From Kangsaoukella pontilimi (GTDB lineage Bacteria; Pseudomonadota; Alphaproteobacteria; Rhodobacterales; Rhodobacteraceae), in contig NZ_WUPT01000004.1 of NCBI RefSeq assembly GCF_009830125.1, positions 1 through 64,000 on the forward strand: 64,000 nt of DNA, written 5' to 3'. How positions within the stretch are numbered: the first letter of the stretch is position 1; every line of letters starts with the position of its first letter. The notes beneath the pieces are model-generated. The model was not told the DNA's origin, made no database searches, and was given only the letters and a program-made list of their open reading frames with translations. This document shows, in pieces, positions 13,709 through 62,650 of this stretch. The translations under genes were made by a program, and so were the position numbers.

Positions 13709-13886
13709 GCTCAATAGCACCTTTCATCGTTCAGGGGCGCATCCGCGGTCGGGGGCCGCGATACGCCCGAGAAACAGGGGGAACCCGACAATACCTGAAC
13801 GCCGTCCCACCGGCGCCCGCCCGTTCGGGTTCCGCGCCTTAGGAAATGCGGTATCCGTAACCGCCCTTCCTGAGACGCGGAAAGCC

Positions 13887-59367: not shown

Positions 59368-59783
59368 CCGCCGACGAGCTTGCCCGCATCCACACTGCCG
59401 CCATGACGGTGCCGCCTCCATGGAGCGCGGTCACGTTTCGGGGTTTTTTATCTTTTCCCGGCGCCATTCTGGCCTTCGAAGCAGGTGGATTTGCTCTCGG
59501 GCGGGTCATCGCCGACGAGGCCGAGCTTCTGACCATTGCCGTCCACCCGGAGGCGCGCAGAAGGGGCATCGCGCGGCGCTGTCTGGCGGCATTCGAGCTT
59601 GAGGCCCCGGCGAAGGGCGCAAGTCGCGCTTTCCTGGAGGTTGCCGCATCGAACGCCCCGGCACGGCGTCTGTACGAGGGTTTCGGCTATGAAGAGGTCG
59701 GGCGCCGCAGGGGCTATTACGACCGGCCCGACGACGACGCCGACGATGCCATTCTGATGGCTAAAGACCTGCCCATTGCATGA
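59364..59783 (+). CDS. rimI: Ribosomal-protein-alanine N-acetyltransferase RimI-like
   Basis: A 139-residue GNAT acetyltransferase. The acetyl-CoA loop is VHPEARRRGIARRCL (residues about 61-75, RxxGxA pattern), followed by FLEVAASNAPARRLYEGFGY, typical of RimI. tsaB-rimI linkage is widespread and supports the call, although the exact protein target (S18 N-terminus or others) is inferred. The ATG overlaps the tsaB stop codon. Confidence 0.9.
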   Translation: MTADELARIHTAAMTVPPPWSAVTFRGFLSFPGAILAFEAGGFALGRVIADEAELLTIAVHPEARRRGIARRCLAAFELEAPAKGASRAFLEVAASNAPARRLYEGFGYEEVGRRRGYYDRPDDDADDAILMAKDLPIA

Positions 59784-59840
59784 CATTGCGTCACCTGCCC
59801 CTTTTCACGGCAAACCAGCCCCGCCTTTCCCAGTAAGCTA

Positions 59841-59870
59841 TTGACCCTCCCCGGCGACTCCGGCCTAAAT
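59841..59870 (+). promoter_or_regulatory. Probable promoter of the BMP transporter operon
   Basis: TTGACC (59841-59846), 18 nt, CTAAAT (59865-59870). The -35 is 5/6 and the -10 is weaker. Transcription would start near 59877, inside the left arm of the dyad at 59871-59905. Confidence 0.5.
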
Positions 59871-59905
59871 CGGCAATGATCCGAAACACACTCGGACGAT
59901 TGCCG
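59871..59905. promoter_or_regulatory. 35-bp dyad at the BMP operon promoter
   Basis: CGGCAAT-GA-TCCGA, 7-nt loop AACACAC, TCGGA-CG-ATTGCCG: 12 of 14 arm positions pair perfectly. It begins at the base after the -10 and covers the predicted start site, the classic position of a repressor operator; if transcription instead starts further upstream it would be an RNA hairpin. I recognise no known operator or riboswitch consensus in it. Confidence 0.65.
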
Positions 59906-59939
59906 GGGCCGCGGCGAAACCGCCAGCATTTATGGCCCC
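59905..59939 (+). promoter_or_regulatory. Second hairpin in the BMP operon leader
   Basis: GGGGCC (59905-59910) pairs with GGCCCC (59934-59939), enclosing a nested GCGG-CGAAA-CCGC hairpin and a 10-nt 3' bulge CAGCATTTAT. It ends 11 nt before the GGGAG ribosome binding site (59951-59955) of the substrate-binding-protein gene. It may stabilise the message or be part of a sensor; no family was recognised. Confidence 0.5.
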
Positions 59940-59962
59940 AAGGTCAAACTGGGAGACACTGA

Positions 59963-60967
59963 ATGACCCTTATGCAGAAATTCCTTGGCGCGAGCGCCGT
60001 TCTGGCGCTGTCCGCCGGTGCCGCCGCCGCCGAGCCGGCCCTGATCTTCGATCTGGGCGGGAAATTCGACAAGTCGTTCAACGAAGCCGCCTTCAACGGC
60101 GCGCAGCGTTGGGCCGAGGAAACCGGCGGCACGTTCCGCGAGATTGAACTGACCTCGGAAGCGCAGCGCGAGCAGGCGCTGCGTCGTTTCGCTGAATCGG
60201 GCGCAAACCCCGTCATCACCACCGGCTTTGCCTTTGCGACGCCGATCGAGGCGGTCGCTCCGGATTATCCGGACACCAAGTTCGTCAACATCGACGGCTT
60301 CATCGCGGACATCCCGGCAAACGTACGGATGATCTCCTTCTCCGAGCATGAAGGCTCTTATCTTGTCGGCATGCTGGCGGCCGAAGCCTCGGAAAGCGGC
60401 ACGCTCGGCTTTATCGGCGGCATGGACATTCCGCTGATCCGGCACTTTGCCTGCGGTTACGCCCAGGGCGCCAAGGCCGTGAACCCCGATGTTCAGGTTA
60501 TCGCCAACTTCACCGGCACCACTCCCGCCGCTTGGAACGACCCTGTGAAGGGCAGCGAGCTGACCAAGGCTCAGATCAGCCAGGGTGCCGACGTTGTCTA
60601 TGCCGCAGCCGGCGGTACTGGCGTAGGCGTGCTTCAGACCGCCGCCGACGAAGGCATCTATTCGGTCGGCGTCGACTCGAACCAGAACCACCTGCACCCC
60701 GGTTCGGTCCTGACCTCGATGCTCAAGCGCGTCGACGTCGCCGTCTATGACTCGATGATGGCCGGTGCCGACATCGAAACCGGCGTCGCGGTTGTCCTCG
60801 GCCTTGCCGAAGATGGTGTCGGCTATGCGGTCGACGAGAACAACGAGTCGCTCCTCAGCGAGGACATGATTGCCTCGGTCGAAGACGCCAAGAGCAAGAT
60901 CATCTCGGGCGAGCTTGAAGTGGCGAGCTACTACGCTACCGACAGCTGCCCCGCGCTGGACTTCTGA
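59963..60967 (+). CDS. BMP-family ABC transporter substrate-binding protein
   Basis: A 334-residue periplasmic binding protein of the BMP/PnrA (Med) family, which binds nucleosides and related purines. The Sec signal peptide spans residues 1-23 (ALSAGAAAA/EPALIF). The mature part begins LIFDLGGKFDKSFNEAAFNG, with Phe/Asp residues that contact nucleoside bases and ribose in PnrA, and contains SQGADVVYAAAGGTGVG. GGGAG lies 7 nt before the ATG. It starts the transporter operon and is followed by a stem-loop that probably protects its mRNA. Confidence 0.9.
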   Translation: MTLMQKFLGASAVLALSAGAAAAEPALIFDLGGKFDKSFNEAAFNGAQRWAEETGGTFREIELTSEAQREQALRRFAESGANPVITTGFAFATPIEAVAPDYPDTKFVNIDGFIADIPANVRMISFSEHEGSYLVGMLAAEASESGTLGFIGGMDIPLIRHFACGYAQGAKAVNPDVQVIANFTGTTPAAWNDPVKGSELTKAQISQGADVVYAAAGGTGVGVLQTAADEGIYSVGVDSNQNHLHPGSVLTSMLKRVDVAVYDSMMAGADIETGVAVVLGLAEDGVGYAVDENNESLLSEDMIASVEDAKSKIISGELEVASYYATDSCPALDF

Positions 60968-60991: not shown

Positions 60992-61020
60992 GACGCCGCG
61001 CCTGTGACGGGCGCGGCGTC
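60992..61020 (+). terminator. Stem-loop between binding-protein and ATPase genes
   Basis: GACGCCGCGCC, loop TGTGACG, GGCGCGGCGTC followed by TTCGTT. The long GC stem with only a short, weak T-run is typical of structures that stabilise the upstream binding-protein mRNA and reduce expression of the membrane subunits, rather than full terminators. Confidence 0.65.
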
Positions 61021-61060
61021 TTCGTTAGGGAACAGGGATTTAGCGAGGGGACCGGGTGCC

Positions 61061-62650
61061 ATGAGCGACACGCCCGCCATCGAGCTGAAAGGTATTTCGA
61101 AAGCCTTCGGACCGGTTCAGGCCAACAAGGATATTTCGATCCGGGTCATGCCCGGCACCATTCACGGGATCATAGGCGAGAATGGCGCGGGGAAGTCCAC
61201 TCTCATGTCGATCCTCTACGGCTTCTACAAGGCCGACAGCGGCACAATCCATATCAACGGCAAGGAAACGGCCATTCCCGACAGCCAGGCGGCGATCGAC
61301 GCAGGCATCGGGATGGTCTTCCAGCATTTCAAGCTGGTCCAGAATTTCACCGTGCTGGAGAATGTGGTTCTTGGCGCTGAGGACGGCCCCCGCCTGCGCC
61401 CGTCGCTGGCTAAGGCGCGGAAACTTCTGAGTGAACTCGCAGAAGAATACGAGCTGGCCGTCGATCCAGACGCCACAATCGAGAACCTTTCGGTCGGCTA
61501 TCAGCAGAGGGTCGAGATCCTGAAGGCGCTCTACCGCAAGGCGGATATCCTCATCCTCGACGAGCCCACGGGCGTTCTGACACCTGCCGAGGCGGATCAC
61601 CTGTTCCGCATCCTCAAGGGGCTGAAGGACGAAGGGAAAACGATCATCCTGATCACCCACAAACTCAGGGAAATCATGGATGTAACGGATACCGTCAGCG
61701 TCATGAGGCGGGGCGAGATGACCGCGACGGTCAAGACCCGCGACACGTCACCTGAGCAACTGGCCGAGTTGATGGTGGGTCGCAAGGTTCTGCTGCGCGT
61801 TCAGAAGACGCCCGCGACCCCATATGCCAAGGTGCTCGAGGTCGAGAACCTGCGCGTGAAGGACGACAAGGGTGTCGAGCGGCTGAAGGGCATCAGCCTT
61901 GAGGTTCGGGGTGGCGAGATCCTCGGTATCGCGGGGGTCGCCGGCAACGGTCAGTCCGAGCTCTTGGAAGTGCTGGGCGGCTATCGGCGCGCCAAGGGCG
62001 TTGTCCGGATCAACGGCGACCAGATCGACCTGACCGGGCGCCGCTCGGACGCACAGTCGCGGCGCGCGCGGGGTATCGCCCACGTGCCGGAAGACCGGCA
62101 GCGCGAAGGGCTGATCATGGATTTCCACGCGTGGGAAAACGTCGCGTTCGGCTATCACAACGCGCCTGAATATCAGAAGTCCAAATGGCTGATGGATAAC
62201 CGCGCGATCAAGGAAGACACGAAAGGCAAGATGGAGCGCTTCGACGTCCGCCCGCCGATCCCGTCGCTGGCAGCGAAGAACTTCTCCGGCGGCAACCAGC
62301 AGAAAATCGTTCTGGCCCGCGAAATCGAGCGCAACCCCGAGCTATTGCTTGTGGGTCAGCCGACGCGTGGCGTCGATATCGGCGCAATCGAGTTCATTCA
62401 CCAGCAAATCGTCGCGCTTCGCGATCAGGGCAAGGCGATCCTTCTGGTCTCGGTCGAACTGGACGAGATCATGTCCCTTTCCGACCGCATCGCCGTGATG
62501 TTCGACGGCAAGATCATGGGCGAGCGGATGCCGAACCAGACTGACGAAAAAGAGCTGGGCATGCTGATGGCCGGAATCGACCCTGCCGCCGGACCCGTCT
62601 CGGCCAAGAAAATCGCCGAAAACCTGAACGCTGCCGCGGGAGGTCATTGA
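61061..62650 (+). CDS. ABC transporter ATP-binding protein (nucleoside/sugar type, two ABC domains)
   Basis: A 529-residue tandem ABC protein. Domain 1 has Walker A GENGAGKST (39-47), signature LSVGYQQR and Walker B ILILDEPT. Domain 2 has a degenerate Walker A (GVAGNGQSE, no Lys), signature FSGGNQQK and a Walker B ending LLLVGQPTRGVD, where the catalytic Glu is Gln. One active and one degenerate site is common in this importer class. The ATG at 61061 (MSDTPAIELKGISKAFG) is chosen; the frame opens at 61004. It follows the binding-protein gene and is 3 nt before the permease gene. Confidence 0.93.
   Translation: MSDTPAIELKGISKAFGPVQANKDISIRVMPGTIHGIIGENGAGKSTLMSILYGFYKADSGTIHINGKETAIPDSQAAIDAGIGMVFQHFKLVQNFTVLENVVLGAEDGPRLRPSLAKARKLLSELAEEYELAVDPDATIENLSVGYQQRVEILKALYRKADILILDEPTGVLTPAEADHLFRILKGLKDEGKTIILITHKLREIMDVTDTVSVMRRGEMTATVKTRDTSPEQLAELMVGRKVLLRVQKTPATPYAKVLEVENLRVKDDKGVERLKGISLEVRGGEILGIAGVAGNGQSELLEVLGGYRRAKGVVRINGDQIDLTGRRSDAQSRRARGIAHVPEDRQREGLIMDFHAWENVAFGYHNAPEYQKSKWLMDNRAIKEDTKGKMERFDVRPPIPSLAAKNFSGGNQQKIVLAREIERNPELLLVGQPTRGVDIGAIEFIHQQIVALRDQGKAILLVSVELDEIMSLSDRIAVMFDGKIMGERMPNQTDEKELGMLMAGIDPAAGPVSAKKIAENLNAAAGGH

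Follow-up and report, generated by a model that had tools for sequence, protein, structure and literature searches.

Our analyses favour, if by little better than an even chance, a structured 5' leader of the BMP transporter mRNA, which would protect the transcript or aid its translation, over a repressor site or a riboswitch as the explanation of the two adjoining hairpins found between the promoter and the ribosome binding site of the BMP gene. The earlier note had read the second of these hairpins as a translational or stability element, a reading that gains support from the conserved promoter, from a structure retained without conserved sequence and from the open ribosome binding site. The leader appears ordinary and well built, and nothing in it calls for a novel type of system. 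BMP-type importers probably contribute to the nucleoside supply of marine Rhodobacteraceae.

Gene context, promoter and predicted start

The window, i.e. the whole stretch of 64,000 nucleotides under analysis, codes on its forward strand for a BMP/PnrA-type substrate-binding protein (59963-60967, ATG at 59963; Pfam PF02608, E 3e-59), whose solved relatives are Lbp (7x0r), PnrA/TmpC (2fqw), BmpA (9q1u) and BmpD (6shu). Nucleoside binding is described for BmpA and BmpD. The BMP gene, with rimI upstream of it, is followed in its operon by a sugar/nucleoside-type ABC ATPase (61004-62650, forward strand, assigned by Pfam and NCBIfam) and by two permeases. NCBIfam 'B6' transporter models match far below their cut-offs, so that the substrate is taken to be nucleoside-like by inference only. 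Between the two permeases, just past the end of the window, lies a gene for a LysE-type exporter, so named from its translation (L113:4807-5439). Tandem duplicated BMP genes occur in two other genomes (G030:C32:8400-10856 and G115:C21:37441-39433), and one of the G030 copies carries an in-frame stop. Elsewhere in the window, a Rhodo-rpoB leader RNA is recognised by Rfam on the minus strand (13738-13827; 54.7 bits, above the gathering score).

Orthologues of the BMP gene were collected from whole genomes of relatives, genome contigs and additional upstream regions, and an iterated matrix served to find their promoters; 141 regions passed. Removal of near-identical leaders left 123 non-redundant Rhodobacteraceae leaders with a recognisable GGGAG; a single sister species (leader L117) takes part in the comparison. 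As controls we used 128 further leaders of these loci, derived from simple ORF calls. Because homologous leaders share descent, the shuffle tests reported here overstate independence.

Across the 141 regions an A-rich stretch, TTGACC, the spacer and CTTAAT, CTAAAT or CCTAAT (the family consensus of the -10) are strongly conserved, TTGAC of the -35 being near invariant. The window's own promoter consists, on the forward strand, of the -35 hexamer TTGACC (59841-59846), an 18-nt spacer and the -10 hexamer CTAAAT (59865-59870), and scores 28.4 with the matrix built from these regions, the family maximum being ~32; the matrix mostly fails beyond the family. Judged from sequence conservation, the BMP transporter gene has a strong, conserved sigma-70-type promoter, and the probable -10 box that had been called ahead of it belongs to a TTGACC-N18-CTAAAT promoter strongly conserved in Rhodobacteraceae orthologues. 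From the spacing to the -10, transcription is predicted to start on the forward strand at A59876, G59878 or A59879 (59876-59879), which coincides with the conserved GATC position of relatives. If the promoter starts RNA at ~59876-59879, the transcript would open with the stem GA-TCCGA-N7-TCGGA or have it a few bases from its 5' end.

Structure of the leader

Directly behind the -10, exactly as the earlier note had claimed, lies a dyad of 35 bp (59871-59905, forward strand), whose arms CGGCAATGATCCGA (59871-59884) and TCGGACGATTGCCG (59892-59905) pair at 12 of 14 positions around a loop of 7. Equally confirmed was the nested GC-rich hairpin GGGGCC-GC-GGCG/CGCC-GC-GGCCCC (59905-59939, forward strand), which abuts the dyad and ends 11 nt before GGGAG. 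RNA folding of 59841-59962 returned both hairpins at -49.9 kcal/mol (z -3.97), a value equalled by none of 200 shuffles, and the segment from behind the -10 to the ribosome binding site reached a fold z of -5.4. Dyads with at least 12 of 14 positions paired and a loop of 3-12 gave 15 overlapping matches in the window vs 4-11 in four shuffles; the dyad alone is therefore not rare, and what is significant is the occurrence of both hairpins together at the leader position. When a start at 59876-59878 is assumed, the outer arm CGGCAA is left untranscribed and the leader z becomes ~-1.8, an unexceptional value; this 5' outer arm probably lies upstream of the predicted start and outside the transcript.

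The second hairpin is the better conserved structure among relatives. Its zone, 8-52 nt before GGGAG, folds more stably than shuffles in the 123 leaders (mean z -1.29, p 2.7e-14; 0.02 in the promoter control) and than the 128 control leaders (z -1.26 vs -0.37, p 3.3e-8), the folding energy being -14.8 as opposed to -11.2 at comparable G+C content, with peaks of pairing 14-20 and 30-42 nt before GGGAG. The hairpin's sequence, on the other hand, is widely divergent among relatives, including the sister species, so that the zone clearly keeps its structure while its sequence changes. RNAalifold recovered 8-16 pairs with little covariation in three clades; the pair changes affecting both sides were few, occurred in close relatives and were confined to two of the three clade alignments, with none in the Ruegeria-type set. 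The check proposed earlier, which set covariation against conservation of arm sequence in orthologous leaders, came out in favour of a conserved structure for the second hairpin, although the covariation itself is thin, and against conserved arms for the dyad. No U-tract follows either hairpin, and since AAGGTCAAACT comes after the second one, this hairpin is not an intrinsic terminator or attenuator.

That open 11-nt spacer (59940-59950, forward strand) separates the hairpin from the Shine-Dalgarno sequence GGGAG (59951-59955, forward strand), which is conserved in nearly all relatives. In the family the stretch is A/C-rich and unpaired: A makes up 43% and C 33% of the last 12 nt before GGGAG, the pairing profile of the 123 leaders leaves the last 10 nt unpaired, and pairing in the stretch amounts to 0.04-0.32, vs 0.13-0.50 in shuffles. 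In five leaders (L079, L080, L097, L107 and L062), (AAC)n runs that resemble Hfq distal-face (ARN) motifs lie directly 5' of the Shine-Dalgarno.

For the first element, the transcribed structure to consider is the 5'-terminal RNA stem GA-TCCGA-N7-TCGGA (59878-59896, forward strand), the local counterpart of a GATC-N4-9-GATC found at the predicted start of 41 of the 123 leaders (shuffle mean 0.6, maximum 3) and placed 5-8 nt after the -10 hexamer as scored. The loops of this motif measure 4 (13 leaders), 5 (4), 6 (11), 7 (10), 8 (1) or 9 nt (2), and TGCTCG follows it in a subset of leaders. Of the two GATC copies the window retains the 5' one; its 3' arm reads TCGGA and is complementary to TCCGA. 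A stem at the predicted start also beats shuffles in leaders with the 5' GATC only (2 of 60 shuffles as good) and in leaders lacking GATC altogether (0 of 60), the energies being small in both. Many leaders have a weak 5' stem (mean ~-2.5 kcal/mol), the fold z of the stem's zone exceeds only slightly that of a control zone upstream of the -35 (-0.58 vs -0.34), and the pairing profile of the 123 leaders gave no excess at the 5' arm. In the window the stem occupies 59880-59896, counted from a predicted, spacing-derived start at 59876-59879. Overall, the 5' stem keeps its structure to a moderate degree while sequence changes.

The arm sequences of the dyad do not recur in the 122 other orthologous leaders, that of the sister species included, and we regard the outer arms CGGCAA/TTGCCG as species-specific. 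Because the arms are unconserved, the GATC loops variable and the stems kept in leaders without GATC, we take the first element to be a short stem formed by the 5' end of the transcript, an interpretation with moderate support. The conservation of GATC and TGCTCG in subclades could alternatively reflect recognition by a protein or a small RNA. A scan of 149 genomes for TGATC-N3-9-GATCTGCTCG returned mostly background; in a sample of 30 GATC...GATCTGCTCG loci, promoter or leader context was found for one, itself a BMP leader.

Proposed role and alternative explanations

A paired 5' end would be expected to slow 5'-end-dependent decay, namely conversion by RppH and 5' tethering of RNase E, and the second hairpin may act as a spacer that sequesters the leader's own bases and so keeps open the region where ribosomes land ahead of a first gene that is highly expressed. 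As a 5' hairpin impedes RppH and stabilises mRNA (review PMC3997798), stabilisation would be the likeliest role. Stabilising 5'-terminal stem-loops are known from E. coli ompA and papA, and have been appended to bla (reviewed in PMC3997798). The BMP leader resembles these in having a stem at or near its predicted 5' end, further structure and an accessible ribosome binding site, but in many relatives the stem is both short and weak, and the start is a predicted one.

The repressor operator that the earlier note favoured for the first dyad now appears unlikely; as considered here, it would overlap the start of transcription and be occupied by a dimeric DNA-binding protein. This reading draws on the 12/14 DNA symmetry directly behind the -10, on the sequence conservation of GATC arms in a third of relatives, and on the outer 5' arm, whose position upstream of the probable start excludes a role in RNA there and leaves one in DNA. 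The arms, however, fail to recur in any of the orthologous promoters compared, GATC loops of every length from 4 to 9 nt are unlike an operator of fixed phase, the stem is retained in leaders without GATC, and dyads of similar quality turn up at other places in the window as well as in shuffled sequence. The likely operator of the family, moreover, lies upstream of the -35.

Somewhat less probable still is that the A/C-rich stretch together with GGGAG forms the target of an Hfq-dependent small RNA (AbcR- or GcvB-like), the hairpins only presenting it. C/A-rich translation enhancers occur in ABC transporter mRNAs that are GcvB targets, and the BMP leader shares with them an A/C-rich unpaired region just 5' of the Shine-Dalgarno, ahead of a gene for a substrate-binding protein; it differs in having no known or found small RNA partner. 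The unpaired A/C-rich 12 nt, the strong conservation of GGGAG in relatives and the (AAC)n runs of several leaders would suit such a target, as would AbcR-type control of ABC transporter mRNAs in Rhizobiales, described in PMC3712013. A search for ar15/AbcR gave no match in the genome and, its controls being equally silent, says nothing either way; GGGAG may simply represent the local Shine-Dalgarno.

We hold it improbable, a shade more so than a small RNA target, that GATC-N4-9-GATC(TGCTCG), at the predicted start of Rhodobacteraceae BMP operons, and the hairpin behind it constitute a regulatory element not described before, either a cis-acting RNA or a start-site element, sensing nucleotide state or binding a dedicated protein, of which the window would contain a diverged copy.

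A ligand-sensing leader, acting as a riboswitch or attenuator for nucleosides, had also been entertained, and is very unlikely. A structured leader does precede a nucleoside-type importer, and GATC...GATCTGCTC is common to a subclade; yet no conserved unpaired core exists across the 123 leaders, the ribosome binding site is open in the default fold, the hairpins lack a U-tract behind them, and the few RNAalifold pairs hardly covary. Nor did the Rfam 15 covariance models yield any match at gathering score in 59700-60050. At E up to 10, the sole Rfam match was a fragment of sX6, which we consider meaningless.

A probable RutR-like operator of the promoter family

The structured leader preferred here coexists, in part of the family, with a palindrome upstream of the -35. 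ACC-N4-GGT occurs within 100 nt 5' of the -35 in 33 of the 123 leaders (1.45 in shuffles), ending 9-11 nt or 31-37 nt before it, and an operator matrix with consensus TTTTGACCAATTGGTCAAAA finds a clear site in 34% of leaders (~42/123), scoring at a level that 0.04% of randomised regions attain, with centres mostly at -14 to -16 or -36/-37 from the -35. BMP promoters carrying TTGACC-N4-GGTCAA include those of L006, L012, L040, L043 and others, in which the site lies ~10 or 31/32 nt 5' of the -35, two positions in phase at an offset of two helical turns. Fourteen genomes also have the exact palindrome 100-200 nt 5' of a RutR-like TetR gene (G003, G006, G007, G009, G010, G014, G021, G026, G028, G039, G045, G046, G061 and G067; the gene of G009 is a more distant homologue). 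In a scan of 100 genomes TTGACC-N4-GGTCAA was overall only mildly above its reversed control, so that it does not mark a large regulon, and a palindrome in L233 was set aside as it sits inside a coding region. From its placement and recurrence, TTGACC-N4-GGTCAA upstream of the -35 is a probable operator of the promoter family, distinct from the dyad.

E. coli RutR, a TetR-family uracil sensor, binds a palindrome of ~16 bp (PMC10891134). The upstream TTGACC-N4-GGTCAA, present in a third of orthologous promoters and ahead of the RutR-like gene, resembles that operator in length and symmetry; the window's promoter differs in having no convincing copy, and its dyad is another element. The E. coli consensus reads TTGACCAnnTGGTCAA, and the upstream palindrome shares these letters.

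At high score the palindrome is absent from the window's promoter, where the best match, TTATGGCCCCAAGGTCAAAC (59930-59949, forward strand), scores 8.7 and is probably due to chance. That a RutR-like regulator acts through this degenerate palindrome beside the ribosome binding site is the least probable of the readings considered, for although its right half-site GGTCAA is perfect, its score is reached by only 1% of randomised upstream regions and the genome has a RutR-like gene, with one strong site in that gene's locus and another before deoC, the score falls far below those of relatives' sites (17.6 at the 10th percentile to 25.6 at the 90th), the position is unlike the phased centres at -15 or -36/-37 from the -35, and three better-scoring chance sites lie within the same 64 kb.

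A shared promoter and leader, with a RutR-like operator in a third of cases, suggests that pyrimidine control has been gained or lost on top of a high-expression leader. The TetR-family RutR homologue of the window's own genome (G000:C1:515957-516583, minus strand; L234:6954-7586), a homologue by sequence that reaches 220 bits where the NCBIfam cut-off is 368, lies in a reductive pyrimidine degradation locus whose genes, named from their translations, are preT-preA-aminotransferase-amidase-hydantoinase. The site beside it (L234:7712-7731) scores 22.8 and that ahead of deoC (L232:2966-2985) 17.4. RutR-like orthologues are present in most Rhodobacteraceae searched, and several genomes hold two nearby copies.
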